Assembly (NCBI GenBank): GCA_009773455.1
Contig: WSXU01000023.1
Location: 1 to 46,356 of the forward strand
Length of the DNA stretch: 46,356 nt
Reading direction: 5' to 3'
Origin: Bacteroidota bacterium
GTDB lineage: Bacteria > Bacteroidota > Bacteroidia > Bacteroidales > Lentimicrobiaceae
Shown here piece by piece: positions 10,144 to 46,100 of the stretch (position 1 is its first letter; each line of letters opens with the position of its first letter). Both the position numbers and the translations under genes were made by a program. The notes beneath the pieces are model-generated. The model was not told the origin of the DNA. It was given only the letters and a program-made list of their open reading frames with translations, and did not search any database.

Positions 10144-11529
10144 CTATTTATGCACATTCCGGATAAACTCTTCCACTTCAGGAACACCACCCTGGTAAAT
10201 CAGGTAACCGTTGTAGGGCTCCCGTGATGTGATCTCATCGTTGATGGGGGTCAACATCAGTTTTTTCACCTCTTCATGGTCGGTGGTTTGTCCCAGCGCC
10301 CAGCCCAGTTTGATGTAAGCGGCTTCCGGCAGCATATTGGCCGCAGGAACAATGCCCTTGGCCATCAGGTCGCGACCGGTGTCATAGACAAACATATGGG
10401 CATATCCCCACAAGGTCTGAACAGTCATATAGATATGAACGCCGGCGGCATGGGCCCGCTCAATGGCGGGATAAATGGGCTTGTTTACATGACCCAGCCC
10501 TGTGCCTGCAATCACGATACCTTTGTATCCGTTGCTGACCAGCGAATCGATGATATCCGGCTGCATATTGGGATAGTAATAAACAATGGCCACTTTCTCT
10601 TCGAAATAGGGGAGAATGGTCACATTTCTGTCCTTGCGCCTGTGGTTGTATTCTTTTTTAATCGGTTCAACCCCTTTGCGGGTTACGGTAGCCAACGGGG
10701 TGTCGCCGATGGTGCGGAAAGTGGAGCGGTAAGAAGAGTGCATTTTCCTCACCCTGGTTCCGCGATGCAGAAATCCGTATTCATCGCTGGTGGGCCCGAA
10801 CATACAGACCATAACCTCGGCAATGTCACCATGACCGGCAGCGGTGGTGGCATGCATCAGGTTCAGCGCGGCGTCGGAACTCGGACGGTCGGATGAACGC
10901 TGGGAGCCAACGAGCACAATGGGTACCGGAGAATTCTGCACCATATAGGTCAGTGCGGCAGCGGTATGATGCAGGGTGTCGGTTCCATGTCCGATCACAA
11001 TCCCGTCAACACCATTTTCGATCTCTTTCCCAATGGCAATGGCCAGTTTCCGGTAATTATCCGGGGCCATGTTCTCACTGAACACCGCGAAAACCTTCTC
11101 TGTGGTGAGGTTACAGATCTGGGCCAGCTCAGGCACAGCACCATACAGTTCCCCTGGTGAAAAAGCGGGAATAACGGCACCTGTGCGGTAGTCGAGACGC
11201 GAAGCAATGGTTCCTCCCGTTCCGATCAGCTTCACTTTCGGCAGACCGGGTGTATTGGGGAATTCCTTTTCAGGGATCTTGTAGTTGGCTTTTTTGTAGC
11301 CTGTTTCTTTCATTCCGGTAATGGTCGCAATGTCGATACCGATGTTGTAACCGGTAATGATCTTCATTACAATGTGCTGATCGTCATCGTTTTCCGCCCT
11401 GGGCAGCACGGTGCCGGTAAAAGGACCGCGGGTGGTGGTCACTTCAGCCTGTCCCCATACACGGACATTGAATTTCTTAAGTACTTCGAGTGAAGCTCCT
11501 TTATATCCCTGAAAAATATCGTCGGCCAT
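10144..11529 (-). CDS. gatD: Glu-tRNA(Gln) amidotransferase subunit D (archaeal type)
   Basis: 461 residues. GatD is the asparaginase-like subunit that frees ammonia from an amide donor for GatE, which converts Glu-tRNA(Gln) to Gln-tRNA(Gln). The N-terminal domain of about 90 residues ends in the GatD hallmark GYNIGI (60-65) and is absent from ordinary asparaginases. The catalytic domain follows: IGTGGTIAS with nucleophile Thr107, GHGTDTLHHTAAAL with Thr183-Asp184, VGSQRSSDRPSSDA, and GTRVRKMHSS with Lys262. All four catalytic positions known from archaeal GatD are present. It lies 255 bases downstream of gatE on the same strand, so the complete enzyme can be made from this locus. A plain L-asparaginase is unlikely given the extra domain and the partner gene. 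Confidence 0.95.
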   Translation of the reverse strand: MADDIFQGYKGASLEVLKKFNVRVWGQAEVTTTRGPFTGTVLPRAENDDDQHIVMKIITGYNIGIDIATITGMKETGYKKANYKIPEKEFPNTPGLPKVKLIGTGGTIASRLDYRTGAVIPAFSPGELYGAVPELAQICNLTTEKVFAVFSENMAPDNYRKLAIAIGKEIENGVDGIVIGHGTDTLHHTAAALTYMVQNSPVPIVLVGSQRSSDRPSSDAALNLMHATTAAGHGDIAEVMVCMFGPTSDEYGFLHRGTRVRKMHSSYRSTFRTIGDTPLATVTRKGVEPIKKEYNHRRKDRNVTILPYFEEKVAIVYYYPNMQPDIIDSLVSNGYKGIVIAGTGLGHVNKPIYPAIERAHAAGVHIYMTVQTLWGYAHMFVYDTGRDLMAKGIVPAANMLPEAAYIKLGWALGQTTDHEEVKKLMLTPINDEITSREPYNGYLIYQGGVPEVEEFIRNVHK

Positions 11530-11681
11530 TTTGTTGGATTGTGTTTTGAGTATTGATTGAGTGTTTTTTTTTACATCCTGATTATATGGTTCCGGAGGTT
11601 TCTCTGATTTGCTGATTGGAATTCAGTTTCATTTTTTAACCGTAAACCTTAAATCAATGTTGTTTAGTTAAGAAAAATTGT

Positions 11682-11726
11682 CTTCGACTTCGCTCAGACT
11701 GACAGCCATCCTGAGCGAAGTCGAAG
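11682..11726. repeat. REP-like perfect inverted repeat between gatE and gatD
   Basis: CTTCGACTTCGCTCAG (11682-11697) and CTGAGCGAAGTCGAAG (11711-11726) are exact reverse complements, a 16-bp stem with a 13-nt loop. The arm resembles a palindromic motif I recall as scattered through many environmental bacterial genomes. It may terminate or attenuate transcription between the two subunit genes, or stabilise the upstream mRNA. No U-tract follows on the minus strand. Confidence 0.85.
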
Positions 11727-11784
11727 GATACTATACATTTTGTTTTCAAATCCGAAACCTTAGCTATTTGACATAAATCGTAAA

Positions 11785-13746
11785 TCAAATCATCTTCGCC
11801 AGTTCGGTCAGCTCCACATTCCCAATAGCCGAACGCCTGAGTTGTCCCATAATCCAGTCCTTCTCAACTCCGGGTCTTTCGGTATGCTGAATCTCGGCAA
11901 ATTTGGTTTTCAGGAATGGCAACTTTCCAAGAAGTTCCTCCCGGGCTACTTTTTTAAATTTTATGCTGGTCAGGGCGGATTCGAATTCGAGTTTCGGATG
12001 CTCATACACATGGGGAAGCATCAGCCAGGCTATCTCTGGTGACAGTGCCTTTTCTTTGATGTATTTCAGCAGGCCGTAAACAATCCTGTAATTGAATTCG
12101 GCCACCGGTCTGGCATGTCCTTCCACAAATTTAAGTTTGTGTCCGAAAAGTGTTCCCACAAATGCCGGATTGTATCCCAGTTCATTCACGATCCTTTCAA
12201 TCAGCGGGAAAAGGTCTTTCTTAAAGATATAGGTATAGGTATCTTCAGGTATTCCCCAGTTCTTCATAATATGATAACGGTCAATCACTTCCTGCGGAAG
12301 GTTACTGCCCAGCTTGTCGATCAGGCTGTTTTCGAGCGGAATGGGAGCGCTGTCGGTATCGGGATACATACGGTCGGCACCCGGCAACACCCGCTCAAAA
12401 ATGGTGGTTCCGTTTTCAAAAGATTTTCGTGTTTCGTTCGGTATCCCTTCGAAAGCCATGAGGCAGCGTTCCTGGATGGTTTCAGTGGCCGTGGCCATGT
12501 CTTCTTCAGGTCCCCATACGATGATCTGGGCATCACCATTCGCGGCCTTCAGCAATTTCCGGATACTGTCCCAGTCTTTCGGGGTGATGACCTGGTCAAA
12601 CTGCTCGGTATGCACCATATTTGGTTTTTCGAGACAGGCAATTACCTTCAGCCGGTCGGTGAGCTCGTTGGCAAACATTTTACCGGGCTGGGTGAAGTGG
12701 GAAAGTGTCCCTTCAAATCCCGGAAGGTTAACGGCAATTATTTTATGCTTCAACCGCTTGGTGTCGGCCAGTGGGGCGTAATCAAACTTGAAGTCGTGGA
12801 AGTCGAGCTCCACCTGGTTGATTTTCCAGTTTTTATAATCCTGAATGCTTGCTTTCAGCCTGTCGCGCAACATCAGCAGCGACCATTGCCTGAAACATTC
12901 GTTGTGCGTGAGTTCAGGAATCCAGCGGGTATGGGCTACGCCTTTGATTTCAACCCGTGAGCCGCCACGGCAGCTTACATTCACATCTTCGCGGCCGGCG
13001 CCGATGCCTGTACGGACTTTACCGGTGCTTCGGTTGAGAAAGCGGATGTAATTGCAGGCTTCCTTCACCTCGTCCGGATTTACCATATCGGGATAGGTAA
13101 CTGTTTCGATCAGCGGCATACCCAGACGATCGGTCCGGTAGATGCGGGTATGACCAATATCGGAAACTTCGCGGCAGGAATCTTCTTCGAGGCTGAGCTG
13201 GATCAGGCGGATATTTTTATGTTTAAGTGGAATCATACCTTCAACACCTATAATCGCTGTACGCTGGAATCCGGTCGGGATGCTGCCGTCGAGGTATTGT
13301 TTACGGGTGATGTGCACCTCACCGACGATGTTGAGTTTTGAAAGCAGCGATATTTCGATGGCGATCTCCAGTGCTTCCCTATTGAGTGGAAATGGTGGTG
13401 TATCGTCAACTTCATAGGTACAGGTGGTCTCGTTCTTCAGCCGGTAAACGATGTTTTTCCTTGTCTTGAATTCCATCAGGGCGGTTCCGTCGTATTCACC
13501 CAGTTCGCTCAGGGTCGGACGCATATGTCTGATGACTTCAGCATCGAATACATCGGGTTTGTTGTAGAGGCCTGCCGGGCAATGGCAGAATAGTTTTTCC
13601 CTGGTCTTCAGCTGCTGGTGTACTTCCAGCCCGGACATAAATCCTATGCGGTCGTAGGTTTCCTGGGTGGCATCCTGCCGTTTGACATATCCTGCTGCTT
13701 CAAGTGTTTTACGGTAGTTTTCGCTGGGGTCGAAAGGTTGATTCAT
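11785..13746 (-). CDS. gatE: Glu-tRNA(Gln) amidotransferase subunit E (archaeal type)
   Basis: 653 residues from the ATG at 13746. An in-frame upstream start at 13806 would lie inside the promoter, so it is rejected. GatE binds Glu-tRNA(Gln), phosphorylates the glutamate with ATP and amidates it with ammonia from GatD. The GatB/E cradle domain shows IGFMSGLEVHQQLKT (residues 34-48) and LFCHCP, then SIPTGFQRTAI, LEEDSCRE and GRREDVNVS-like GAGREDVNVSCRGG. Next comes the inserted GAD domain, found in GatE and bacterial AspRS but not in GatB, beginning near KIIAVNLPGFEGTL. After it comes the GatE-type block PGADRMYPDTDSAPIPL. A YqeY-like helical tail closes the protein. The length fits archaeal GatE (about 620-640) and not GatB (about 480). 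Bacteria normally use GatCAB or GlnRS, so this is an unusual gene. Confidence 0.95.
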   Translation of the reverse strand: MNQPFDPSENYRKTLEAAGYVKRQDATQETYDRIGFMSGLEVHQQLKTREKLFCHCPAGLYNKPDVFDAEVIRHMRPTLSELGEYDGTALMEFKTRKNIVYRLKNETTCTYEVDDTPPFPLNREALEIAIEISLLSKLNIVGEVHITRKQYLDGSIPTGFQRTAIIGVEGMIPLKHKNIRLIQLSLEEDSCREVSDIGHTRIYRTDRLGMPLIETVTYPDMVNPDEVKEACNYIRFLNRSTGKVRTGIGAGREDVNVSCRGGSRVEIKGVAHTRWIPELTHNECFRQWSLLMLRDRLKASIQDYKNWKINQVELDFHDFKFDYAPLADTKRLKHKIIAVNLPGFEGTLSHFTQPGKMFANELTDRLKVIACLEKPNMVHTEQFDQVITPKDWDSIRKLLKAANGDAQIIVWGPEEDMATATETIQERCLMAFEGIPNETRKSFENGTTIFERVLPGADRMYPDTDSAPIPLENSLIDKLGSNLPQEVIDRYHIMKNWGIPEDTYTYIFKKDLFPLIERIVNELGYNPAFVGTLFGHKLKFVEGHARPVAEFNYRIVYGLLKYIKEKALSPEIAWLMLPHVYEHPKLEFESALTSIKFKKVAREELLGKLPFLKTKFAEIQHTERPGVEKDWIMGQLRRSAIGNVELTELAKMI

Positions 13747-13775
13747 CCTGTTTGATGGGTAGGTTAAGAAGAGGT

Positions 13776-13807
13776 CAAACCTACACGAATTTTCGGAATC
13801 CAGCAAA
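13776..13807 (-). promoter_or_regulatory. Bacteroidota-type promoter for gatE
   Basis: On the minus strand: TTTG (13807-13804), a 20-base spacer, then TAGGTTTG (13783-13776). This matches the TTTG-N19-21-TAnnTTTG consensus fully. Transcription would begin near 13770, leaving a leader of roughly 25 nt before the ATG. The archaeal-type genes are thus read from a native-style promoter. Confidence 0.75.
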
Positions 13808-27574: not shown

Positions 27575-28795
27575 TCAGTAGACGGGCATCTCAACCTTGC
27601 CGATGAACAACAGGGTGTTGCTGAGTCTTTCCCTGATGGCAAAAATAAACGGCTTGTCAACCACGAAAGGTTCCGGTGCACTGGTTACTTCAATGCCAAT
27701 GGTGGTTACAGCGGCAGCTTCAGTGCCTTCTTCATTCACATCAACAAAGGTGTTCTGCTTCACAAAACTGACAAAGATATTTTCATCTGAAATACCTGTC
27801 AGATCCGCTAGAGCAGGGTTAAAGGCATCGGTCATGCCGAGCACCTGAAGCTGATCGTTGAGGTATTTTTCATAATCGAATTTAAACTTCGGGATGACGA
27901 TTACTGCTGACAGGGGTGTGATGATGGCATCGAGCCCTCCCGTGATGGCCAGCCATGATTCATGATTGAAATCCTGAAGATAACTGCTCAGGGTTCCATT
28001 GGGGACAATGATGTCCATAGCATAATTCTGTTGTCCGTAGTTCAACTCTATGGCTGTACATTGGTTATCAGAATATTTTCTGTAGGGGAAGTTACCCATC
28101 ATCATGGGCACATTCGCACCGTCACCGTTTTCAGGGTTAAATCGCACCGGCGATGTCAGCAAATTGTCAAACTGATAGGTCCACCGGCCTTTGAAATACA
28201 GGGCATTCATCAGAAACATTACGGCATCCGGTGAGATTTCTTCGAGTACCTTCTCAATTTTTCCGTTGGTATTATCACTTGCCCAGCCATTGATGGTATT
28301 CACGGATGAAGGGTTGTTAAAATCAAGGGCTTCGGTCCTCGCATTGTATGCGGTTTCCAGCCTTTCAAGGAAAGGGCTTTTGACTTCAAAGCCCTGCCTG
28401 TACCAGACCGAATTGGCCAGGGCGAGGTTGATTTCCGGATCGATGGTTAGCAGCTGGGCCACCAGGCTCTGGTAGGTGTCGTTGATTTCTTCCATCGTCA
28501 GATCCTGGTATCCCACCATATCCCGGATCTGGGAGTATGTACCTGAACCGCACCCGTTGAGCAGCATCGATAAAGCCGTGCTGGCGCTTAGGGGCGAAAG
28601 CATCAGGTTTCCATCATCCGCAACAGCGGTTTCCCTGAAAAGATCAATCCCGAATTCATTGCTGTTGGCTATAACCTGGCTGGCTTTGGCAGAAAGGTTA
28701 ACCGGTTTGGGATCTCTGGGACCGGCAGGTGTTTCTTTTTTGCATCCCATACTCAGCAGAACGGGTATCACAAGTATCAAAACATGAATTTTCAT
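27575..28795 (-). CDS. Serpin-family protease inhibitor, lipoprotein
   Basis: 406 residues from the ATG at 28795. The signal peptide ends in a lipobox (LLSMGCKKE), so the protein is lipid-anchored. The serpin fold follows: NLMLSPLSASTALSMLLNG, ANSVWYRQGFEVKSPFLE, NGWASDNTNGKIEKVLEE, MFLMNALYFKGRWTYQFD and the C-terminal KPFIFAIRERLSNTLLFIGKV. The reactive-loop hinge EEGTEAAAVT (from residue 355) has small residues at the positions needed for loop insertion, so it is likely a working inhibitor. The scissile bond lies in the IGIEVTSAPEP part and cannot be placed by eye. It probably protects the cell from serine or cysteine proteases, its own or foreign. Confidence 0.93.
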   Translation of the reverse strand: MKIHVLILVIPVLLSMGCKKETPAGPRDPKPVNLSAKASQVIANSNEFGIDLFRETAVADDGNLMLSPLSASTALSMLLNGCGSGTYSQIRDMVGYQDLTMEEINDTYQSLVAQLLTIDPEINLALANSVWYRQGFEVKSPFLERLETAYNARTEALDFNNPSSVNTINGWASDNTNGKIEKVLEEISPDAVMFLMNALYFKGRWTYQFDNLLTSPVRFNPENGDGANVPMMMGNFPYRKYSDNQCTAIELNYGQQNYAMDIIVPNGTLSSYLQDFNHESWLAITGGLDAIITPLSAVIVIPKFKFDYEKYLNDQLQVLGMTDAFNPALADLTGISDENIFVSFVKQNTFVDVNEEGTEAAAVTTIGIEVTSAPEPFVVDKPFIFAIRERLSNTLLFIGKVEMPVY

Positions 28796-28819
28796 ATAAC
28801 CTTTTTTTGAGTGAAACAC

Positions 28820-29065: not shown

Positions 29066-32000
29066 TTATCTGATGATGGTTACATCTCCTGTTACCGGAC
29101 TCGAAAGCGTCCTGGTTACGTAGGATGGTGCCTCATAAGAGATGACATAAACGTAAACACCCGGTGGCGCAGGTACGCCTTCGATGGTTCCATCCCATCC
29201 TTTACCGGTATCCGAAGAGGTAAACAACAGTTGTCCCCACTTGGAATAGATACTCATATTGTACAGCGAAGGTTCAAATCCGTTGAACAATGGTTTGAAG
29301 GAGTCGTTCAGGTTATCACCATTCGGTGTAAACGCATTGGGTATAAGCAGCTCAATGTTGCAGGGCACCAGTTGTACCGTGTCAACAGCTTTACAGCTAT
29401 TGGTATCAACAACCTGTACCCAGTAAATGCCTTGTTCATAAACAAGCTGGCTTTCAGCCGTGCTGCCATCCTGCCACAGGTACGAAGCATATCCGCTTCC
29501 CGGTGCGAGCAATACCTGCTGTCCGTAGCAGATGGTGTCGGCATAACCGATATAGATGACTGGTTTCGGGTTAACCTTGACAGAAACCAGTTTTGTGGTA
29601 TTGCAGAAGTCAGGATTCGTGGCGATCACCTGGTACTGGCCACCATCATTCATGCCCAACCTTCCCAGTTGCCAGTCGGATCCGTTGTGCTTGAATCCGG
29701 AAGGTCCGGTCCATTCAAACAGAAGCTGCTGGTCATCAAGAGAGCCTGCCTGCAGGGTTAAGGTGTCTTCTTCGCAATATACGCCATCACCTGACGTGTA
29801 TACCAACGGACTCGGCAGAACTTCGGCCAGCCCCTGGGTATAAATGGCCGGAATCTCATAGCCTGCCGAAGCATAGATTATACACTGCAGCCAATGCCAT
29901 TCAAGATCGGTATTTCCTGCCGCAATGGCATTAAACCCGAGGGAGAACAACAGGTCTCCGCCCGGAACAGTTGTAGATCCGGTATTCTGATAAGTAATTC
30001 TGAGAACACCCGGATAGACGAATGATGTACTGACCCCGGCTGCATTCAGGGCCGGGTTATATTGTGAAATTCCGGTAAATTCAATAACGCCCGGATCGTA
30101 TGAGAGTTCGATCGTAAATCCTGAAACATTGGTAAAGTCATAGGCCAGCACTGGTACACCAACAGGTGTGTTTACACAGCCAATGACCCTTCCGGCCATC
30201 AGCTGAACCTCCCCATTGATCAGATTCCGGATAATAAATCCGAGTGATGTGATGCAGCCGTTTGCATCTTTCACAAAGGCTGTGTAGTTGCCTGGTAGCA
30301 GGCCATAGAAGGTGTCAGACGATTGCCACAGGATACCATCAAGAGAATATTCCATTGGTTCGGCCTGACTGTCTGCGATTACTTCGGCAATACCATCCGG
30401 TTGTCCGTCGTTGGCCGGTGTGCAACTGACTTCAATAATGGAAGGACCAGCGAGAGCCGGAACTATGAGTCCGGTCAGTTGTTCTTCGCAGCCATGGCTG
30501 TCTCTTACAACAACTGTATAAACGCCTGAGGTCAATCCGGTAAATTCGCCGGATGATTGCCATGAAGCTGTTCCTTCAAGCCTGTATTCATGGCTTCCTG
30601 AGCCACCCGTAGAAGTAATAATGATCTTTCCGTTGGGCTCACCACAGGTTGATGGTACAATAGATTCTGAAGCAACAATAGCCGGGGGACTCGTTACAAC
30701 AAAGAGTCCGAGCGGCATGGTGCATCCGGCTTTGTTGGCGTCGCCCAGCCAAATATCATAGGTTCCTGCAGCAAGGCCGGTAAAGTTTCCTGTTAATGTC
30801 CAGTTTGCTCCGCCATCAATGCTGAACTCATAGGTTCCTGAACCACCAGTGATGTTTGTAAACGATATTTCACCATCCAATGCACCAATGCAGGAAACCT
30901 CTGTCTGAACAACCGTTGCACTTAACTGGCCTGGTTCTTCAATGGTAACTGAAGCCGAGGCTGTGCTGCCCAGGGCGTCGGTAACGGTGATTGTATAAGA
31001 TCCGGCCATCAATCCTGTTGCTGATGCAGTTGTCTGTGCTGCAGGATCATTCCAGAGGTGAGAATATGGCTCAACACCTCCTGTAGCAGTAGAAGAAGCC
31101 TGACCATCAGTATATCCGAAGCATGAAACATGCTGAACAACAATTGCGGTTACTGCCAGTCCCGGGATTGGGTCTGTCAGGGTAACAGCGCCATTAGCGG
31201 TACAACCGTGAGCGTCGGTAACGGTAACATTGTAAGTGCCGGCACTGAGACCGGTTGCAGTTGCTGTGGATTGTGCGGCCGGGTCATCCCACAGGTAAGT
31301 ATAAGGTGCGGTTCCGCCCGATTCAATGGCTGTTGCCTGACCATCATTGCCACCTGGCGTGGTCGGATTGATTCCTGAAACATTCACCAGAAGTTCACCC
31401 GGTTCGGTTATGGTAACCGAAGCCGTAACGGTTGTGTTGGTTGCATCGGTCACCGATACAGTGTAGGTTCCGGCCGCCAGTCCTGTAGCCGTGGCGGTGA
31501 TTTGCGCTGCCGGATCATTCCAGAGATAACTGTATGGTGCAACACCATTGGTTGCCGTGGCAGTTGCCTGACCATCACTGAATCCGAAGCAGGAAACATG
31601 TTGATCAACAACAGCAGTAACAGAAAGGTCAGAGGCCGGATCGGTCAGTATAATCTGACCGGTTGCCGTACAACCATGAGCATCCGTAACTGTAACATTG
31701 TAGGTGCCTGCGGTGAGTCCGTTTGCTGTTGCCGTGGTTTGTGCGGCCGGATCATCCCACAAATAGGAATATGGCGGTGTTCCACCGGTAACGGTAGCTG
31801 TAGCCTGACCATTGCCGGCGCCCATAGGATTCGGGTTGATTCCTGTTACATTGACAATAAGTTCATCCGGTTCGGTGATGGTAACCGAAGCGGCGACAGT
31901 GGTATTGGTAGCATCGGATACCGATACGATGTAGGTTCCGGCTGCCAGCCCGGTGGCCGTTGCAGTGGTTTGTGCTGCCGGATCATTCCAGAGGTAACTA

Positions 32001-34075
32001 TATGGTGCAACGCCGTTGGTTGCTGTTGCCGTTGCCTGACCATCACTCAGCCCGAAGCAGGAAACATGCTGATCAACAACAGCAGTAACCGAAAGGTCAG
32101 AGGCCGGATCGGTCAGGATAATCTGACCGGTTGCCGTACAACCATGGGCATCCGTAACTGTAACATGGTAGGTACCTGCTGTGAGTCCTGTCGCTGTTGC
32201 CGTGGTTTGTGCGGCCGGATCATCCCACAAATAGGTATATGGCGGTGTTCCGCCGTTTGCGTTGGCTGTAGCCTGACCATTGGCAGCGCCCATTGGATTC
32301 GGATTAATTCCCGAAACAATCACGATCAATTCGTTTGGTTCTGTGATGGTTACTGAGGCAACAACTGAACTTCCGTCTGCATCGGTTACTGTAACAGTAT
32401 AGTTGCCGGCCTGCAGGTTGATGGCTGTTGGTGTGGTCTGGGCTGCCGGGTCATTCCACAAATAGCCGTATGGTGCTGTGCCGCCTGTAGCCGTAACAGT
32501 TGCCTGACCATCGCTGTAGCCAAAACAGGAAACATGCTGATCAACCAATGCACTGGCATTCAATCCCGGGCCCGGGTCAGTCAGGGTAATTGTTTTTTCT
32601 GCCCGGCACCCGTTGGCATCGGTCACTGAAACTGTGTAAGTGCCTGCAGTCAATCCAGTAGCTGTAGCTGTGGTTTGTGCCAATGGATCATCCCAAAGAT
32701 AGGTGTAAGGCAGGGTGCCTCCCGTGACAATCGCTATGGCCTGTCCATCGTTGCCCCCCGGTACAGATGGGTTGGTTCCACTGACATTCACGATAAGTTC
32801 ATCGGGTTGGGTAATGATAACGGTGGTATTGACACTATAACCTGTTGCATCTGTAACCGAAACGGTGTATGTACCGGCAGGCAGATTGGTTGCAGTGGCA
32901 GTGGTTTGTGCCATCGGATCACTCCAGAGATAACTGTATGGCTCTGTTCCACCGGTAGCAGAAGCCGTTGCCTGTCCATCGCTGTAGCCAAAGCAGGATA
33001 CCTGCAGGTCAACAATGGCTGTTATGGCAAGGTCTGAGGTCGGTTCAGTCAGGGTGATGGTCCTGTTGGTTCTGCAGCCATTGGCGTCAGTCACTTCAAC
33101 AGTATAGGTGCCTGCAACAAGTGCTGTTGCAGTGGCGGTAGTTTGCGCAAGCGGATCATCCCACAGATAGGTGTAAGGAGCGGTTCCACCGGTCACTATA
33201 GCTGTAGCTTCTCCATCATTGCCTCCCGGAATGGAAGGATTGGTGCCATTGATGTTTACTGTAAGTTCATCAGGCTGCGTGATGGTTACTGTGCCGGATA
33301 TTGTACATCCCGAAGCATCGGTGATGGTGAAGTTGTAATCACCTGCAGCATAGCCCTCATACAATCCATCGGCATGAACAATGCCTTCAAGTTCAAAGGT
33401 ATAGGGCTCAGTTCCTCCTGAAGCAACCAGCTGAACTGATCCGTCTGATAAACCGTAGCAACTGACATTTGTAATCAGGTTGTCTGTCTGGAGGTCGCCA
33501 AAGGTGATGGTTACCGAAGATTCAGCAGGCGGGCAGCTTCCTTCACGTCCGAAGCCGGTTGCTGTCAGTGTGAGTGTAACGGTGCCCAGCGAGATGTCGG
33601 TTGGCCCGAATGTATAGGTCGGGTTCAGCAACGTGGCATCATCAAAGGATCCGTCACCTGTACTTGTCCATTGCAGGTTCATGAATTCCGACGCGGTGGC
33701 ATTGATAAGGGTATATGGATTGCTGCTGCACAGGGTAACATCTTCTCCTGCATCAGCCTGAGGTATTTCAAATACCCTGATGGTGCCGAGTTCAAGACTA
33801 TCGCATCCGTGAATACTGGTTTGAATCACAGAAAGAATATACTCTCCGGCTGCCACATTCCAGAGGATGGTGACCGTATCGGCTGTTTCCGGTAAACTGG
33901 TGATGGTTCCGACCGGATCGGTGAGTGACCAGGCATAGGTTGAATTCAGCTCTCCGTCGATGCGGTAATGTCTTTCTGAACCAACACATACACTGTCGAT
34001 CACATACGTCTGGCCGGCCGCTCCTAAAGCGACGGCAAGAAGTAATGTCAACAATATATGTTTCAGCCTGATCAT
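29066..34075 (-). CDS. SprB-repeat surface adhesin with gliding-motility-type C-terminal domain
   Basis: 1,669 residues. Signal peptide (IRLKHILLTLLLAVALGAAGQ), then an Ig/PKD-like N-terminal region (to about 185). About 14 SprB-type repeats follow (about 190-1270). Most alternate between type A (VSCFGYSDGQATATATGG ... LWNDP) and type B (NPxxPGGNDGQATA ... LWDDP), with a combined period of 156 residues. Then come a cohesin-like domain (about 29815-30215; ELSYDPGVIEFTG), an Ig-like domain (FEWTGPSGF) and the CHU_C domain of about 92 residues from LIPNAFTPNGDNLND to the end. SprB of gliding Bacteroidota is a mobile surface adhesin exported by T9SS, and this protein is likely a similar adhesin. 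It starts 1 base after the stop of the upstream gene. The Cys in each type A repeat is unpaired within the repeat. Confidence 0.92.
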   Translation of the reverse strand: MIRLKHILLTLLLAVALGAAGQTYVIDSVCVGSERHYRIDGELNSTYAWSLTDPVGTITSLPETADTVTILWNVAAGEYILSVIQTSIHGCDSLELGTIRVFEIPQADAGEDVTLCSSNPYTLINATASEFMNLQWTSTGDGSFDDATLLNPTYTFGPTDISLGTVTLTLTATGFGREGSCPPAESSVTITFGDLQTDNLITNVSCYGLSDGSVQLVASGGTEPYTFELEGIVHADGLYEGYAAGDYNFTITDASGCTISGTVTITQPDELTVNINGTNPSIPGGNDGEATAIVTGGTAPYTYLWDDPLAQTTATATALVAGTYTVEVTDANGCRTNRTITLTEPTSDLAITAIVDLQVSCFGYSDGQATASATGGTEPYSYLWSDPMAQTTATATNLPAGTYTVSVTDATGYSVNTTVIITQPDELIVNVSGTNPSVPGGNDGQAIAIVTGGTLPYTYLWDDPLAQTTATATGLTAGTYTVSVTDANGCRAEKTITLTDPGPGLNASALVDQHVSCFGYSDGQATVTATGGTAPYGYLWNDPAAQTTPTAINLQAGNYTVTVTDADGSSVVASVTITEPNELIVIVSGINPNPMGAANGQATANANGGTPPYTYLWDDPAAQTTATATGLTAGTYHVTVTDAHGCTATGQIILTDPASDLSVTAVVDQHVSCFGLSDGQATATATNGVAPYSYLWNDPAAQTTATATGLAAGTYIVSVSDATNTTVAASVTITEPDELIVNVTGINPNPMGAGNGQATATVTGGTPPYSYLWDDPAAQTTATANGLTAGTYNVTVTDAHGCTATGQIILTDPASDLSVTAVVDQHVSCFGFSDGQATATATNGVAPYSYLWNDPAAQITATATGLAAGTYTVSVTDATNTTVTASVTITEPGELLVNVSGINPTTPGGNDGQATAIESGGTAPYTYLWDDPAAQSTATATGLSAGTYNVTVTDAHGCTANGAVTLTDPIPGLAVTAIVVQHVSCFGYTDGQASSTATGGVEPYSHLWNDPAAQTTASATGLMAGSYTITVTDALGSTASASVTIEEPGQLSATVVQTEVSCIGALDGEISFTNITGGSGTYEFSIDGGANWTLTGNFTGLAAGTYDIWLGDANKAGCTMPLGLFVVTSPPAIVASESIVPSTCGEPNGKIIITSTGGSGSHEYRLEGTASWQSSGEFTGLTSGVYTVVVRDSHGCEEQLTGLIVPALAGPSIIEVSCTPANDGQPDGIAEVIADSQAEPMEYSLDGILWQSSDTFYGLLPGNYTAFVKDANGCITSLGFIIRNLINGEVQLMAGRVIGCVNTPVGVPVLAYDFTNVSGFTIELSYDPGVIEFTGISQYNPALNAAGVSTSFVYPGVLRITYQNTGSTTVPGGDLLFSLGFNAIAAGNTDLEWHWLQCIIYASAGYEIPAIYTQGLAEVLPSPLVYTSGDGVYCEEDTLTLQAGSLDDQQLLFEWTGPSGFKHNGSDWQLGRLGMNDGGQYQVIATNPDFCNTTKLVSVKVNPKPVIYIGYADTICYGQQVLLAPGSGYASYLWQDGSTAESQLVYEQGIYWVQVVDTNSCKAVDTVQLVPCNIELLIPNAFTPNGDNLNDSFKPLFNGFEPSLYNMSIYSKWGQLLFTSSDTGKGWDGTIEGVPAPPGVYVYVISYEAPSYVTRTLSSPVTGDVTIIR
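30400..33500 (-). repeat. SprB-repeat array with 468-bp A-B super-repeat
   Basis: TGATCAAC in equivalent positions at 31602 and 32070 gives an exact 468-bp period (156 codons). These two neighbouring units are the most alike. Other units have the same A-B order with more divergence, and the three repeats nearest the 3' end are irregular. Confidence 0.88.
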
Positions 34076-37186: not shown

Positions 37187-40100
37187 CTAAGGATCCGTAA
37201 TGTCAGGCCGTGGGAGAACGGTGAGTATGACAGAAGCGGATGTTTCGTTGCCGTAAGCATCGGTTACGGTATAAGTGATAAGATTGGTTCCGAGTGGGAA
37301 ATTGATGGGCGTTGATAGCGAAATCTGACCATTTCCGGTAAGGTCGATGGTGGCGTCATTGCCAAAATCAACTTCCCATGAAATGGTCACAGCGCCCGGG
37401 CAGTTATCTGAAATCCCCGTAAGGTCAAGCAGGGTATTGCCGTTGGTCAGAATATAATAATCGCGGCGGTCCGGTGTCAGATCGTCAATGTAATAAGTTC
37501 CGCCGGGATTGTAAATGGCAGAAATGAAACCTTCAACGCAATAACCGTCAGCCAGTACCGGCAAAGTGAAAACAGGTGACTGATCATCGGTAATTGTGAT
37601 TGTCTGCAAACAATCGTCTGTACCTGAAACATTGGTTGCTGTCCAGGTTATGGTGGTAGTTCCTACATTGAACACATAATTTCCGATGGGCCCTGTGCCG
37701 GCATCGATGGTTGCCCCGGTCATATCCCACGACCAGGTTACCGGATCACCTGCATTCACAGTAGGTTCTGCGGGATTAACCTGAGCTGAACATAGGCCTG
37801 CATCAGCACTTTGTGTTACCCCGGCAGCACAGGTGATGTCGGGAAGGTCATTGGATTGAACAGTTACAGTAAACTGACAAATGGCCTCATTCCCGCAGGC
37901 GTCGGTGGCAGTGTAGGTTACCGTGGTAGTTCCTGTATTGAACTGGAAAGGTGAAGGTATTACCCCTGTTCCGGAGCCGGCAGTCGGTGCTGACATCACC
38001 CAATCCAACGCTATATTCATGGTGGCTGTGCAATTGTCTGAATACACCGGATCAGTCAGGGTAATTGTAGCATAAGTGAAGCCCGGATCAGAAACTGTGG
38101 TAATATTTCCGGGGCAAAACGTAAATGCCGGAATGGTGGTGTCATCAATATTAAAGGTGTGATCAGTGGTATTTACATTTCCACAAGGATCTGTGACAGT
38201 ATAAGTTCTGACAATCACCACCGGACAGGTTCCGGCCGGGGTACCATCGACATGTGCAACAACCAGGCCGGCATCAAGTGCGCAGTTATCGGCAACTGCT
38301 ACACCCAGGGCTTCGAGGGCAGCAACGGTGTTAACAGCAGGTGGCAGATCGGCAGCAGAACATCCTTCTATATTTGTGTTGGCGATGCTGCCAGTGATGG
38401 TTGGATCGATGGTATCATCTATATTAAATGACTGGTCTGCAGTATTTTCATTACCGCAAGCATCTGTAACTGTATAAGTCCTTACCACCACCAACGGGCA
38501 GGTACCTGCCGGAGTGCCATCGGCGGATGTTACAGTCAGGTCGGCATCATCGGAACAGTTATCGGCAATGGCAACACCCAGGGCTTCCAATGCAGAAACA
38601 GAATTGACGGCAGCCGGCAAATCGGCGGCTGAGCAGCCTTCTATATCCGTATCTGCAATGGATCCGGTAATTTGCGGAATGGTGGTATCTTCAATATTAA
38701 AAGTCTGGTCAACTGTATTTTCATTTCCGCACGGGTCGGTCACAGTATAGGTCCTGATCACCACTACCGGACAGGTTCCCGCGGGTGCACCATCAGAATG
38801 AGTGACTGTGAGGCCTGCATCCGGAGAACAGTTGTCCGACACGGCAACTCCAAGTACCTCAAGTGCTGCCACAGTGTTAACAGCAGCAGGAAGGTCTGCT
38901 GCCGAACATCCTTCCACATTGGTTGCAGCAATCGCTCCCGTGATGACAGGAATTGTGGTATCTTCTATATTGAATGTTTGGTCAACAGTATTTTCATTTC
39001 CACAGAGATCAGTAACGGTATAGATCCTGATAACCACCACAGGACAGGTTCCTGCAGGTACGCCATCGGAATGAGTGACATTCAGGCTTAAATCCGGAGA
39101 GCAGTTGTCTGATACGGCAACCCCGAGCGCTTCAAGGGCAGCAACGGTATTAACTGCAGCAGGAAGATCTGTGGCAGAACATCCTTCCACATTGGTTGCA
39201 GCAATCGCTCCCGTGATGACAGGAATTGTGGTATCATCGATGTTAAAGGTTTGATCAGCAGTATTTTCATTTCCGCAGGGATCTGTAACAGTGTATGTCC
39301 TGATGACCACTACCGGGCACGTTCCGGCCGGTACACCATCATAATGGGTTACTGTCAGCGAGGCATCGGGAGAACAGTTGTCGGAAACCGCGACCCCCAG
39401 TGCTTCAAGCGCTGCAACAGTATTGACTGCGGCAGGAAGGTCGGCAATAGAGCATCCTTCAACATTGGTATCGGCTATTGTTCCGGTAATGGCAGGTATG
39501 GTGGTATCTTCTATATTAAATATCTGGTTTACAGTGTTATAGTTACCACAAGGATCTGTGACGGTATACGTCCTGATGACCACCACAGGGCAGGTTCCGG
39601 CCGGTGTTCCATCGGTATAGGTGACAACCAGTGCGGCATCTGCTGAACAGTTGTCCGATACAGCAACCCCCAGTGCTTCAAGGGCTGCAACAGTATTGAC
39701 AGCGGCAGGAAGGTCAGCAGCAGAGCAACCTTCAACATCGGTTGCTGTAATTGATCCGGTGATGACTGGTACTGTAGTGTCTTCAATGTTAAAGGTCTGG
39801 TTGGCTGTACTATAATTTCCACACAGATCTGTAATGGTATAAGTCCTGATGACCACCACCGGGCAGGTTCCGGCTGGTGCTCCATTGCTAAAGGTGACTG
39901 TAAGGCCGGCATCAGGAGTGCAATTATCAGAGATGGCAAGTCCCAGGGCCTCAAGGGCTGCTACTGTATTTACTGCAGCCGGAAGATCTGCAGCAGTGCA
40001 TCCCTGTAAAATGGTAACATTGATGGTTCCGGTGACGACCGGATTTGTTGTATCGTCAATATTGAAGGTTTGAGCAATGGAACTGCTGTTTCCGCAATGA

Positions 40101-43100
40101 TCGGTTACTGTGTAGGTTCTGATAACAACCACCGGACAGGTTCCGTTTGGAGTACCATCCGAATAGGTAACCACCAGGTTTGCATCCGTTGAACAATTGT
40201 CGGTTATTGCGGGCCCGAGTGCTTCGAGGGCAGCAACGGTATTTACTGCAGCCGGTAAGTCCGAAACAGAACAACCTTCGATGGTCGTAAGCGGGATTAA
40301 TCCTGTGATCACAGGGTTGTCCACATCATCCACAAGGATAAGCTCATCGGCTGTACCATTACACCCGTTGTTATCTGTTACCATGAGCAACAGATTGTAG
40401 GTATCTGCACAAGTATTTCCGGCTGTAACACTTACCTGTTGAAGGTTGGTAGCACCGGGTAATGTACCGTTGCCGGTTATACTCCAGTCGTATCCGGTCA
40501 TTCCTGCATTGCCATCATACAGGTTATCTGAGCCTGGGCACACAACCCAATCACCTGTGATATAGGCCGATGGCAAGGCATTTATCGTTACTGTGGTTGA
40601 TGCAGCGATAGCCCTGGTGCAGCCATTGTCATCGGTAACGCTGGTCAGATTATAGACAAATGTTCCCTGCGTATTGGTGGCAGCAAAAATGAAAACACTG
40701 AGGTCTGTGCCCCAGGTAGTAATTGTTTGGGTTGGTCCGCCATCGATATTGTATTCAAAGGTATATGGCGGGGTACCACCTGAACCATTGAACCAGATAA
40801 ATGGTGATCCGGCAAACTGGCAGTAACTGCCTCCCCCGGTAATGGTGGCATTCGGAGCCTCATTAATTGTTACAAATACATCATCGGTCTGAGGGCTGCA
40901 GCCATAGGAGTCACGCACGGTAACCTGGTAAGTTCCCTCGGCTGCCAGGGTCACATTGGGTATGGTGGGATTCTCCTGATTTGAAGTAAAGCCATTCGGT
41001 CCTGTCCAGCTTACGGTATAGGGTGCCAGACCACCACTGATATTTGCTGTAAGTTGTAGCGTTTCCCCTTCGCAGGCAATATTTGCACCACCCTGTGCTG
41101 CCGGGGCGAATGTAAATGGGATCGGGTCAAGGGTTCCGAAAGAAATATCGTCAAGTCCAAAGTCATTACCTCCGAGATCAGGGCGAAGATTGATGATCCT
41201 GATTACCGCGGTTGTTGCAGCTCCTGAATTCCAGGTTGGGTTGCTGTAAAATCTGACCCAGTTCGAAGGAGAGACCTGTGAATTGTTGGCAGGTCCGGGA
41301 CCAAGCTCGGCAATGGTTCCCACCGGAACGCCATTTACCTCAAACTGCAGACGGGCATAATTCCCTGCATCATTGACACTCATGGCATAGGCCGAGAAAT
41401 AATAATCCAGTCCGGGCACAACGGTGACCGTCTGTTGCCAGATTCTGAGTGTATTACCCAACCCGTTGACAATCAGAAATTGTCCGGAACCCGGGTTGGT
41501 GCGGTCTCTGCCAAAAAAGTCAGTATGATAGTTAAATCCATCTGTTCCAACGCTGTATAATCCTTCAGGCCATAGCTCGTTCTGCAGGGCCGGATTATCG
41601 GCTACATATCCATAATCAGTGATAAATCCGGTATTCCCGGCATTGAAATTGCCATTGGTTACCAGTTCATTTGATGCATTCAGGTAGGCTGTGGCCACAC
41701 AACCATTGGCACCGGTTACGGTGACATTGTATATGCCGGCTTCATCAACACAGATGACCTGGTTGGTTGACGGAGGAACGGTGTTCCACAGGTAAGTGCC
41801 ACCACCTGTAGCTGTCAGCTGAATACATCCCGGCTGACTGCAGTAGTCGGCATTGATGGCTGCGGGTGGCAGCGGGAGGGTTGTTACAGTGGTGGAGGCA
41901 CTGGCGCTGCACAATGACAGGGGGTTGGTATAACTGACGGTATAAACTCTGGTTTCAGTCTGGCTTACGTTGGCCGGGTTGGCTTCAGTTGAAGTGAAAC
42001 CGGCAGGAAGGGAGGTCCAGCTGATGATTGGTATTGTATTGCTTGAAGTAGCCGTCAGGGTCACGTTATCAATCGCCCAGTAACGGTCATCATCGCCCGA
42101 ATAATAAAACCTGATGTAAAAAGTAGCATTTCCGCAGTAAATACTCAGGTCAATGCTTGGATGGACAAAGCCATTTGCTGATCCCTGGGTTGCTGAATAA
42201 ACTGCCACATCTGTCCATGCTGTACCGTTGGTAGAAACCTGCACCCGGGCCCTGGAATTGGACTCATGGCGATAGTAATGATAAAAATCAAGTGACAGTG
42301 AAATATACCCGGTTGTATTGATTACAGGGCTTCGGAGATAGGTATCCGTGGCTCCGTTGTTGCGGCTGTTTGCATGATAAAACTGAGAATTATCATTCGA
42401 ATGGTAAGTGAGATTATTATAATTATAACCGTCAGGTCTCAGGGTCCACCTTGCTGCAACGGGATTGCCTGAAATTGTCCATGTATTGGTCGGATCATTG
42501 AAATCCTCTTCCAGGATGGGCGTAGGTGCATAACTGAGACTCGATGACGATAAAAGATCAAATTGAACACCCGGGCAGACGGCTGTTGGATCTGAGCTGG
42601 CATTTACACTTGGAATGGGGTCAACGGTTACTGTTATCGTAAAAGGACTACTGATACACCCACCGGAGATTGAAGTAGCCGTAACAATATATTCGACGGT
42701 ACCTGAGGTGGCATTGCTTGGATTGGACAGAACCTGACTGATCGTATTTCCTGAGCCATCAGAAGCGCCTGTAATGCCCCCTGTTATGGTGCCTCTGATC
42801 CAGCTGAATGTTGAAGGGGTACTGGACGTTAAAGTCAGGTTTGTATTTGAACCTGAACAGATCCTGATGCCGGCACTGTTGGTGACAACCGGCCGGGGAT
42901 GAACAGTAACGGTTATGATAAACGGAGAACCCTGGCAACTGCCCGATGTTGCTGAAGGTGTCACAATGTATTGAACAGTTCCGGCTGTCGAATTGCTGGG
43001 GTTTGTTAGTATCTGGTTGATGGAATTCCCCGATCCTGCTGAAGCCCCGGTTATTCCTCCTGTGATGGTTCCGATGGTCCAGGTAAAGGAACTTGCAATG

Positions 43101-46100
43101 GTTGCAGTTAGATTAATACCTGTCGGGAACCCGCTACAGATCTGTGTTGTGGGTGAATTGGTAATTACAGGTTCCGGACTGATGGTCAGTGTTATCGTGC
43201 TTGAATTTCCTGGGCATCCCAGGGAACTCACGGCCTGAACAGTATAAACCACATTTACCGGGTTGGTTGTTGTGTTTGTCCATGCATCATCGGCAATGAC
43301 ATTGGCATTAAAACCATAACCCAGTACAGGGTTTCCGGCCGAAGCAGTCAGGCCGTTTGTAACAATGTCCGTGATACGGTAAGAAGCTGCCGCAACACCA
43401 TTGGTGCTGTTGCCGATCACTACCCCGGAAGCCACATCACTACAGATTGCAGCAGGAGATTGATTAACGAGTACAGGTGCCGGATTTACAGTCACATTGA
43501 CCTTTACTTCATCATTGGAGCACTCATCGGCTGTCGCCGTAATAGCGTAAACTACAATGGCGGGCAGGTTTGAAGTATTGGTTAGCACCTGGTTTATCTC
43601 ATTCCCCATGCCGTCAGAGAAGCCGGTCGTACCTGAACCCACGTTCAGGTAAGCTTCCCAGGTAAAAATAACTCCTGATATGTTGCTCGACAGTTCAATA
43701 ACTGTACTTTCTCCTGTGCATATACCCTGATCCGTGGGGCTTGCGGTGACTGTAATTATCTGATTGGCCAGAATGGTAACACTGTGGCTGTTTGAACATC
43801 CGGTTGCTGTATTGGTTTCGACCAGGGTATATACCGTGGTTTCAGCAGGAGTCACTTCAGGATCCGAATCAGTTGAAGTAAACCCGACTGGAACAGAAGT
43901 CCAGCTGTAGGTATTTCCGGGAACCGGAGGAGCTCCGATTTGTATGGTAGCCCCTACGCATATGGCACCATCCGGGCCTGTTTCCGCTGCAGGCAAGGGA
44001 TTCACGGTTACACTCAGGGTGCTGGCCGGCCCGTTTCCACAGCTGTTCTGTGGTACTACCTGCACATTTCCTGAATTGATGCCGGAAGTAACATCAATCG
44101 TGTTGGTTCCCTGCCCTGAATTGATTGTCCATCCCGCAGGAACTGACCACAGATAAGTAATACCGGGTGTATTGGTCACACTGTATGTGTGCGAAGTTCC
44201 TTCGCAAAACAATGCGTCCCCGGAGATAACACCGGCAGAAAATGGCAACAGAAATACATTGACAGCCAGGGTGGCAGAGGGGCCATTGCCGCAACCATTC
44301 GAAGGTGTAACAACCACATTGCCTGAAATACTTCCGATCGTTGCCGTCATTGAATAGGTGCCTTGTCCGCCGGTAATTACCCAGTCGGCCGGCACTGTCC
44401 AGTTATAGGTGACTCCCGGAATAAAAGTAACATTGTAATTCTGTGAACTTGCCTGACAGGGATTGGTATTTCCTGATATTGATGATGTTGCGTTCGGAAC
44501 AGTCAGGTTCACGGTAATGGTTCTAGATTGCATGGTCCCTGTACCGCAATCATTTGAAGGGGTAACCGATATCACACCGGTGTTATTTCCGGCAGTAACA
44601 GTCACAGCGTTTGTGCCCTGACCGCCGGTGATGGTCCATCCTGCCGGAACGGCCCAGGTATATACCACAAACGGTACCGCGGTAACTGAATATGTCTGGG
44701 ATGATCCCTGGCAAACGGGGTTATTTCCTGTGATGGGGTCTGGCTGTGCAGGAACTGTTGCCTGAGGCGTTACAGCCAGATTTCTTGGAGAGCTTCCTCC
44801 GCAGGCATTACCTGCTGTAACAGAAACGTTTCCGGCATTGGCACCTACGGTTGTGGTAATTGAATTTGTACCCTGCCCGGCAGTGATGGCCCACCCGGCC
44901 GGAACAGTCCAGGCATAGATCACCCCGGGCACATTAACCACTGAGTATGTTTTAACAGATCCGACACAGGGTGCAATTTCCCCGGTAATTAAACTGGGCT
45001 GCAAAGGACTCGAAAGGATAACGGTAATATCCATCGTTTGTGCCGTTCCATTGCCGCAGGCATTTGAAGGTGTTACCGTCAATGTTCCTGAAGTATTACC
45101 AAAAAGAATACTCACCACATTGGTGCCCTGTCCTGATTGAACTGTAGCTCCCGGGAAAGCCCAGGTGTAAGTTACACCGGGTGGGGGAGGAGGCATGACC
45201 ATAAACGGATGGGAGCTGTTGCGGCAAACAGAGGTGGTAACCGGTGAAATTGCACCCGGCTGGGCTGGCAGTGTGGCTACAGTTAACGCCAGGCTCCTGG
45301 AAGTTCCGTTTCCGCAAACATTTGAAGGAACAACGGTGACATTTCCATTGGTAACCCCGACTGTTACTGTCACCGAATTGGTTCCCTGTCCGGCGGTAAT
45401 GGTCCAGCCAGCCGGGAAAGCCCAGGTATAGGTTACCGAAGGAACGTTGGTAACACTGTAAACCTGTGATGAACCCTGACAGGGATTTGCATTCCCTGAA
45501 ATCGCATCCGGCTGGGCCGGAACCGAATTCGGGGTTAACGCCAGTGTCTGGGCAGTTCCGTTGCCACACGAATTTGAAGGGGTAACGGTAACATTGCCTG
45601 CCGTTGCTCCGGCAGTAACCGTCACACTGTTTGTGCCCTGGCCTGCAGTTATGGTCCAACCTGCCGGGAATGCCCATGTATAAGTAACCCCGGCAACATT
45701 GGTGACCGAATAAACCAGTAGTGTCGTGCCGGCACAGGGAGACAGCTGACCGCTGATTGCGCCGGGTTGAGCCGGTACTGATGTGACAGTAATTGCCAGT
45801 GTTTGTGCAGTTCCGTTTCCGCAGGCATTGGAGGGGGTAACAGTTACGTTACCAATAGCTGACCCAACGGTAACAGTAACTGAGTTTGTACCCTGTCCGG
45901 CGGTAATGGTCCAGTCGGCCGGGAACGACCAGGTGTAAGTTACACCGGCCACATTGGTAATGCTATAGGTCTGGGAGGAACCTGTACAGGGGGTGACTGA
46001 CCCTGTTATAGCGGAAGGTTGATTCGGGACGTTTGTTATCGTGACTGCAAGCGAGCGGGCAGTTCCATTGCCGCAACCGTTGGATGGGGTAACCTGGATG

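Follow-up and report, generated by a model that had tools for sequence, protein, structure and literature searches.

Genes for both subunits of an archaeal-type GatDE amidotransferase in a Bacteroidota genome that also encodes GlnRS

The locus described here, which encodes the Glu-tRNA amidotransferase subunits GatD and GatE in a Bacteroidota genome, raises the question, and poses a direct test, of what a Glu-to-Gln converting enzyme does where Gln is charged directly. Two 2022 reviews restrict GatDE to archaea and describe archaea as lacking GlnRS, an absence which one of them ties to the co-evolution of GatDE and tRNA-Gln. Related passages occur in PMC7373986, PMC8007984, PMC9499178, PMC8762117, PMC9976931, PMC3655853, and PMC7541841; in PMC4206432, PMC13047044, and PMC12283126 the mention is confined to the reference list. 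A search by title and abstract, with most subscription journals outside its coverage, found no description of bacterial GatDE. A bacterial branch, present mostly alongside GlnRS in the genomes searched, breaks both the archaea-only and the no-GlnRS rule.

Both genes lie on the minus strand of the window, that is, of the whole 46,356-nucleotide stretch of DNA that was analyzed. The downstream gene, gatD (positions 10144 to 11529), was recognized from its open reading frame, profile matches and catalytic residues as encoding an asparaginase-like amidase of 461 amino acids, which scores 492 bits against TIGR02153 (cut-off 324) and 494.6 bits against NF003217 (cut-off 310). Its GatD_N domain with the GYNIGI motif (11323 to 11442, minus strand) matches PF18195 at 38.4–41.8 bits (cut-off 25.7). 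Residues T107, T183, D184, and K262 align with T101, T177, D178, and K254 of 2d6f, which we take to be the catalytic residues, and the four positions are invariant wherever filled in an alignment of 59 bacterial and 52 archaeal rows, which favors a working amidotransferase. Among three genomes of the genus GatD is 90–92% identical with synonymous sites saturated, a pattern which suggests strong constraint and likewise favors an amidotransferase; of the 12 pairs compared, a single one yielded a dN/dS value, the others being saturated at synonymous sites.

The upstream gene, gatE, was called as an open reading frame from 11785 to 13806 (minus strand; 673 amino acids counted from TTG). This TTG falls inside a Bacteroidota-type promoter found by sequence match, TTG-N20-TAGGTTTG at 13776 to 13806 (minus strand), and the start is therefore likely to be the ATG at 13746, about 30 bases downstream of the promoter, which gives a gene from 11785 to 13746 and a protein of 653 amino acids. 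Within the window this promoter is one of two full matches on the minus strand, with none on the plus strand, so the full promoter expected in front of the upstream gene is present. GatE scores 403.3 bits against TIGR00134 (cut-off 319.55) and 451.7 bits against NF003107, just below the cut-off of 456. The original prediction of an intact archaeal-type pair, with the GYNIGI domain and all four catalytic residues in GatD, is thus borne out by the profiles and the alignment; GatE is complete as claimed, but its inserted GAD domain (12490 to 12750, minus strand) is weaker by sequence than had been stated, at 17.6 bits against PF02938 (cut-off 23.4). Residues E61, H63, C74, C76, E207, E208, and E234 (673-residue numbering), presumably those of the Mg and Zn sites, are kept in all filled rows. 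In an alignment of 47 bacterial and 35 archaeal GatE sequences, each of the 16 positions examined is conserved in every filled row or in almost every one, which again favors an amidotransferase. The AlphaFold model has a mean pLDDT of 89.9, and its top PDB matches are the GatE chains of 1zq1 and 2d6f, which it matches over 514–541 columns.

Among solved structures, the pair is also closest by sequence to these two, the archaeal GatDE of Pyrococcus abyssi (1zq1) and the complex with tRNA(Gln) (2d6f), to which both subunits are alike over most of their length, with 45–47% identity in the aligned part for GatD and about 34% for GatE. Shared features are the GatD_N domain, the catalytic and metal-site residues and the predicted GatE fold. 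The proteins differ from the archaeal ones in a diverged GatE tail, an extra C-terminal segment of GatD and a separate clade, and the host differs in being a bacterium with GlnRS, a discriminating-type GluRS and U1-A72 tRNA-Gln; membership in GatDE is kept because the mismatches in tRNA-Gln (A1:U72) and in GluRS and GlnRS are features of the host and not of the protein family. Bacterial GatCAB performs the same overall type of reaction and shares the GatB_N domain (PF02934), which is common to GatE and GatB. Unlike GatCAB, however, the GatD found here is of the asparaginase type and not a GatA-type amidase, and the host genome has no match to the GatA family, its sole GatB match being GatE itself.

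The two proteins were not found to belong with ordinary asparaginases and GatB: they score as GatD and GatE, and in trees from which plain asparaginases and GatB were left out they fall into bacterial clades (100/100 for GatD, SH-aLRT 100 for GatE) grouped with Asgard rows. The Lokiarchaeia and Odinarchaeia sequences join the bacterial clade with full support in both trees, and the start of the GatD C-terminal extension is visible in the Odin GatD and in one other Asgard GatD. A transferred origin, as first proposed, is therefore likely, and the two trees favor an amidotransferase derived from Asgard archaea; most simply, the bacterial clade would go back to a single derivation from an Asgard-like archaeal source, after which GatDE would have been kept and passed among bacteria, mainly users of GlnRS. 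The Asgard hosts differ in that a search of one Loki genome and one Odin genome gave no GlnRS match over the cut-off, whereas most bacterial carriers have GlnRS.

The transfer is not particular to this lineage. GatD_N was found in 88 of 198 Bacteroidales genomes, both proteins occur in the cultured Marinifilum flexuosum, and GTDB genomes gave at least 116 matches to a GatD motif, 55 of which, among the matches listed, are in records titled as bacteria from about a dozen phyla. This spread also weighs against a contaminant or chimeric contig, an explanation which we reject as scarcely credible even though the host assembly consists of 159 contigs with 2.05% contamination; the neighbors of gatED in the window include LptD and proteins with T9SS sorting domains, and two further genomes of the genus carry gatED together with one neighboring gene family in common with the window.

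A check of the host genome for glnS, gatA, gatB, and the type of GluRS showed which of the routes to Gln-tRNA(Gln) are present. GlnRS, whose presence is one half of the second outcome originally named as refuting, is intact (TIGR00440, 726 bits), and GluRS has Arg at the position of Thermus thermophilus R358, which we take to mark the discriminating type; PF01425 gave no match for GatA in this genome, and PF02934 matched only the GatE of the window. Both tRNA-Gln genes found, read by eye, pair U1 with A72. Given these features, replacement of the bacterial route, one of the two outcomes first suggested, is not supported, and GatDE stands at most beside the direct one; a duplicate of the bacterial route is possible.

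Our preferred though tentative reading of the sequences, to which we give a little less than an even chance, is that the pair is a working Glu-tRNA amidotransferase of the bacterial GatDE clade which acts beside GlnRS and converts mischarged Glu-tRNA(Gln). As the conserved residues would predict, GatD would free ammonia from Gln or Asn and pass it through a channel to GatE, where the side chain of tRNA-bound Glu would be phosphorylated at the expense of ATP and then amidated. The bulk of Gln-tRNA(Gln) would come from GlnRS, and GatDE would serve for correction or back-up by amidating mischarged Glu-tRNA(Gln) to Gln-tRNA(Gln). Several observations count against such a role: little Glu-tRNA(Gln) should be available as substrate in a cell with GlnRS and a GluRS of the discriminating type, 110 of the 198 Bacteroidales genomes have no GatD_N match, GatD and GlnRS show no association within Bacteroidales, the GatE tail has diverged, and the U1-A72 of the host tRNA-Gln differs from the A1:U72 that archaeal GatDE is reported to read in its substrate (PMC9499178).

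The main rival of Glu-tRNA(Gln) conversion is a changed substrate, in which the chemistry was kept and the target became another aminoacyl-tRNA or a carboxylate outside tRNA; this would account for the coexistence with GlnRS, and we consider it possible but somewhat doubtful. The presence of GlnRS, the discriminating-type GluRS and the U1-A72 tRNA-Gln speak for it, as do the two ends of the proteins. The GatE tail, the part expected to hold tRNA, is helical and diverged (11788 to 12087, minus strand; from the profile end and the modeled helices): the TIGR00134 match stops at 567 of 622, which counts against a Glu-tRNA(Gln) amidotransferase, and no YqeY-type Pfam match to the tail is listed at E values up to 10, with the helices there confidently modeled. 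GatD carries a conserved C-terminal extension (REPYNGYLIYQGGVPEVEEFIRNVHK; 10147 to 10224, minus strand), the strict pattern of which is present in 48 of 55 bacterial loci vs. three of 61 archaeal loci. GatD is also better conserved than GatE, with median identities of 82% vs. 67% in 10 Bacteroidales loci. Against a new substrate, the active and metal sites are unaltered, the two subunits are still paired, and an LRGR-type motif still ends many bacterial GatE tails outside Bacteroidales. Nor do the surroundings hint at another pathway: apart from gatE and gatD no neighboring gene family recurs in more than four of 11 loci, the most widespread being one whose protein has a weak match to a T9SS sorting domain. 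As for a special RNA substrate, neither ARAGORN nor Rfam, the latter at gathering scores, detected a tRNA or other RNA gene anywhere in the window.

The same conservation bears on whether GatD and GatE act separately, for example with GatD serving in the cytosol as an asparaginase or a glutaminase. The asparaginase domains of GatD, its higher conservation and the few loci in which the genes lie apart fit this explanation, which we nevertheless hold to be very improbable since both active sites are kept and the two genes are neighbors in each of the 11 loci that were read at length, among them that of the window. In two of these loci a single gene intervenes, and the one intervening gene that was scanned encodes an M28 peptidase with a sorting domain. 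This pairing favors an amidotransferase. The adjacency originally noted in the window is confirmed, with 255 bases between gatE and gatD, within which lies a perfect 16-base inverted repeat (11682 to 11726).

The distribution of GlnRS bears on whether GatDE might instead be the main or only source of Gln-tRNA(Gln), GlnRS contributing little or being silent. Four Bacteroidales genomes with GatD_N (G428, G468, G533, and G571) lack both a strong GlnRS match and a GatB match above the cut-off, as such a role would have it. These are, however, assemblies of 130–230 contigs, and GlnRS is present in G570, which shares its genus with G468; the host GlnRS is intact and far above the cut-off, and a strong GlnRS match is present in 81 of the 88 GatD-bearing Bacteroidales genomes. 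Within Bacteroidales, carrying GatD does not go with loss of GlnRS, a strong match being missing in 7/88 carriers vs. 10/110 others, nor have carriers shifted to a non-discriminating GluRS: the Arg equivalent to R358 is kept in all 31 aligned sequences, 16 of them from genomes with GatD and 15 from genomes without it. Other GluRS columns that differ between the two sets were not read as function because the sets differ in ancestry. Of the three GatE-bearing genomes of the phylum without GlnRS, two (G287 and G314) contain a match of the GatB type. We therefore regard GatDE as main source as improbable.

Outside the class of the window, a strong GlnRS match accompanies GatE in 26 of 29 genomes vs. 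78 of 268 without GatE, which favors the corrective route; the link, for which Fisher's test gives p = 2e-10 with genomes and p = 0.03 with families as the unit, is partly shared ancestry, as the count by family indicates. GlnRS was over the cut-off in 14 of 17 bacterial genomes hand-picked from the 55 named loci. In a more specific and doubtful form of the corrective route, GatDE and GlnRS would be a co-retained pair, in which an Asgard-derived GatDE adapted to U1-A72 tRNA-Gln repairs Glu-tRNA(Gln), and the pair would also have reached some archaea; if true, this would be a correction enzyme for mischarged tRNA that acts by conversion and not by hydrolysis. Since Marinifilum flexuosum DSM 21950 is a cultured carrier, the role of GatDE is testable. 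Among archaea, GlnRS was over the cut-off in two Thermoplasmatota MAGs with a GatD of the bacterial branch and in one Asgard MAG with a GatD of the adjoining branch.

The gatD gene lies at 10144-11529 on the minus strand (461 aa) and gatE in an ORF at 11785-13806 on the same strand, and both are unbroken open frames separated by 255 bases, in agreement with the original prediction that two intact and adjacent subunits of an archaeal-type amidotransferase are present. GatD scores above the thresholds of two NCBIfam models for this subunit, TIGR02153 (492 bits, cut-off 324) and NF003217 (494.6 bits, cut-off 310), and above that of Pfam GatD_N (38.4 bits, cut-off 25.7); GatE passes TIGR00134 (403.3 bits, cut-off 319.55), in an alignment which ends at model position 567 of 622, and falls narrowly below the cut-off of NF003107 (451.7 bits against 456). 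Sequence support for the GAD insert of GatE is weak (17.6 bits against a cut-off of 23.4), and a profile search with E values up to 10 matched no YqeY-type tail; in the AlphaFold model of GatE (alignment of 32 sequences, mean pLDDT 89.9, pTM 0.87) the tail region is made of confident helices. Sequence comparison with solved structures gives the archaeal GatDE pairs 1zq1 and 2d6f as the nearest, and the GatE model has its top PDB matches in the GatE subunits of 1zq1 (E 1.3e-43) and 2d6f. All four catalytic residues predicted for GatD and the checked active- and metal-site residues of GatE are conserved in both the bacterial and the archaeal rows. Membership of the two proteins in GatDE is well supported.

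The full Bacteroidota promoter predicted before the upstream gene (TTG, 20 bases, TAGGTTTG) was found on the minus strand at 13806-13776; a scan of both strands of the window with spacings of 18-23 bases gave two full matches, both of them on the minus strand. As the TTG "start" of the ORF belongs to this promoter, translation of gatE probably begins at the ATG at 13746, giving a product of 653 aa. The gap between gatE and gatD contains a perfect 16-base inverted repeat, CTTCGACTTCGCTCAG, at 11682-11726, of which no second copy was found in the window with up to two mismatches allowed. Because this repeat occupies the gap upstream of gatD, this gene may be controlled separately.

In all 11 loci read at length, the window included, gatE and gatD adjoin in the same order, with one intervening gene in two of them (the one that was scanned encodes an M28 peptidase). 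Among the matches listed from a wider scan, both genes were on one strand in 38 of 55 bacterial loci (one pair being 4.8 kb apart) and on opposite strands in two, while GatE was not in the stretch for the other 15, some of which are cut by contig or locus ends. Within the genus GatD is 90-92% identical and GatE 76-83%, and median identities to the window across 10 loci of the order Bacteroidales are 82% for GatD against 67% for GatE. GatD is under strong selection, since its 90-92% identity is retained despite saturated synonymous sites. Bacterial GatD carries an extra conserved segment at its C-terminus (EPYNGYL..QGG..EVEEFI), whose strict pattern was present in 48 of the 55 bacterial loci among the matches listed; of the misses, five are cut by the stretch end (L137, L163, L207, L219, and L231), L221 has one changed letter and L169 is without the segment. 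Three of 61 archaeal loci among the matches listed also have it, from Odinarchaeia (L158), an Asgard archaeon (L239), and Thermoplasmata (L206).

The genome of the window (4.81 Mb, 159 contigs, 95.4% complete) contains two genes of the tRNA-synt_1c family, one GlnRS (L002:1390-3066; TIGR00440, 726 bits, cut-off 426) and one bacterial GluRS (L003:1018-2643; TIGR00464, 493 bits, cut-off 290). In this genome GatB_N has no match apart from GatE of the window, and the amidase family to which GatA belongs has none at all; true absence of GatA and GatB is likely, and short of certain because the assembly is incomplete. In the host GluRS the position equivalent to T. thermophilus Arg358 is Arg, the mark of a discriminating GluRS, and this Arg is found in all 31 aligned GluRS, from 16 GatD-bearing genomes (host included) and 15 GatD-lacking ones; the Marinifilum GluRS has it too. 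Among 42 tRNA matches are two tRNA-Gln (CUG and UUG, the former about 100 bases behind glnS), both read here as U1-A72, and archaeal GatDE is reported to read the D-loop and A1:U72 of the tRNA (PMC9499178). While the proteins are well supported as GatDE, the host setting departs from the archaeal system in two features. GlnRS, the GluRS type, U1-A72 tRNA-Gln, and the diverged GatE tail all speak against a need for the old substrate, which makes a changed substrate for GatDE the main rival explanation, and one we consider rather unlikely.

Of 198 genomes of the order, 88 carry GatD_N (in 69 of 150 genera) and 177 have GlnRS above its cut-off, with split matches in some of the rest. No GlnRS match better than 1e-40 was obtained in seven of 88 GatD-bearing against 10 of 110 GatD-lacking genomes (Fisher p 0.8), and true GatB was over cut-off in 13 of the 198, eight of these with GatD. 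These counts mean that within the order GatDE coexists with GlnRS, and sometimes with GatCAB, and that its presence does not track the Gln-tRNA route. Four GatD-bearing genomes of the order showed neither GlnRS nor GatB (G428, G468, G533, and G571; 96, 99, 83, and 84% complete, in 130-230 contigs). Across the 395 genomes of the phylum, 30 had GatE over cut-off, of which all 29 besides the window's own lie outside the class Bacteroidia. Outside the class (297 genomes), GlnRS matched strongly (better than 1e-90) in 26 of 29 genomes with GatE against 78 of 268 without it (Fisher p 2e-10, a value overstated by counting relatives as independent); by family, GatE occurred in seven of 25 families with GlnRS and in none of 18 without it (p 0.03). 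The three GatE-bearing genomes without GlnRS are G251, G287, and G314, the last two having a GatB-type match. In G156 (L033), a genome of another class, GatDE is of the same type as in the window (85 and 63% identical), which is what a later transfer or mis-binning would give.

A GatD motif scan of GTDB genomes, a sample of uncertain ordering, returned at least 116 loci, and ORF comparison confirmed GatD in 116 of 116 among the matches listed (55 titled as bacteria, 61 as archaea). The bacterial titles among these are Bacteroidales, Marinifilum, Lentimicrobiaceae, Saprospiraceae, Melioribacteraceae, Ignavibacteria, Chlorobiota, Caldithrix, Acidobacteria, Holophagales, Aminicenantes, Gemmatimonadetes, Planctomycetes, Zixibacteria, Cloacimonetes, Fermentibacteria, Aegiribacteria, CSSED10-310, a Bdellovibrio, one proteobacterium, and records titled only "bacterium"; most are MAGs, and Marinifilum flexuosum DSM 21950 (L232) is a named strain. 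GlnRS was over cut-off in 14 of 17 GatD-bearing bacterial genomes hand-picked from these loci, the others being those of L156, L187, and L174. The GatDE carrier L156 (Phycisphaerales, G590, a single contig) has only a C-terminal piece of GlnRS (L261:1145-1405, 87 aa, 57% identical).

By sequence, both subunits and their active sites are intact, and the two are kept as a pair. GatD would supply ammonia from Gln or Asn and GatE would phosphorylate and amidate tRNA-bound Glu. The intact sites and the coexistence with GlnRS outside the order favor conversion by GatDE of mischarged Glu-tRNA(Gln) beside GlnRS, a reading we put forward tentatively, its substrate being the least certain part.

Trees were built after exclusion of rows below set lengths and of two further rows, and have no outgroup. 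In the GatD tree (63 rows, mixture model, C-terminal segment excluded) all bacterial rows, the window's included, form one clade (100/100), within which the Thermoplasmatota MAGs L206 and L212 are nested, and this clade is joined to the Asgard rows (Loki, Odin, and L239) at 100/100, with the branching order within Asgard unsettled; a quick tree of 111 rows agrees. The GatE tree (82 rows, without L206 and L212) likewise places the window's protein in a single bacterial clade (support 100), on the same side of a branch (100) as Loki and Odin, with the Asgard rows in their own group (98). The Thorarchaeal row is placed elsewhere in both. The simplest reading is a single ancient transfer out of an Asgard-like lineage, with later movement between bacteria and to some archaea, the direction being inferred since unrooted trees alone do not give it.

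GlnRS was over cut-off in three archaeal MAGs whose GatD lies in or beside the bacterial branch: G591 (Thermoplasmata, GatD locus L206; 755 bits, single 5.16 Mb contig; L255 and L257), G610 (Thermoplasmatota, L212; 622 bits, at a contig end; L253), and the Asgard G609 (L239; L251:7181-9091, 636 aa, TIGR00440 about 660 bits). Each has a second, weaker match, which groups with GluRS of Loki and Odin, and no GlnRS was over cut-off in the Loki and Odin genomes searched. The G591 and G610 enzymes are sisters (98/97), and that of G609 matches the archaeal GluRS model from the N-terminus on. The G591 gene has a member of the lysS_arch family 1.3 kb away, a family not known to be confined to archaea, and the G609 neighbors (UvrA and an oligopeptidase B-like gene) do not settle the domain of origin. 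As these genomes are MAGs, GlnRS in GatD-bearing archaea is a lead and not a result. The G609 case is of note in that archaea are said to be without GlnRS. Between its gatD and gatE, G591 has a glutamine synthetase-like gene that scores below its cut-off.

One 2022 review restricts GatDE today to archaea (PMC9499178), another from the same year places it "exclusively in archaea ... an archaeal signature protein" (PMC8762117), and according to a 2020 mycobacterial paper there is no precedent at all for a dimeric amidotransferase of its kind (PMC7541841). Our literature search, with most subscription journals outside its reach, found no description of bacterial GatDE; the bacterial proteins are expected to be already named as such in databases via the NCBI models. 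Elsewhere in the window, this Bacteroidota genome encodes a full-length serpin (27575-28819, minus strand; PF00079, 330 bits), and an ORF of 2996 aa (37187-46177, minus strand) lies near one of 1669 aa (29066-34075, minus strand).
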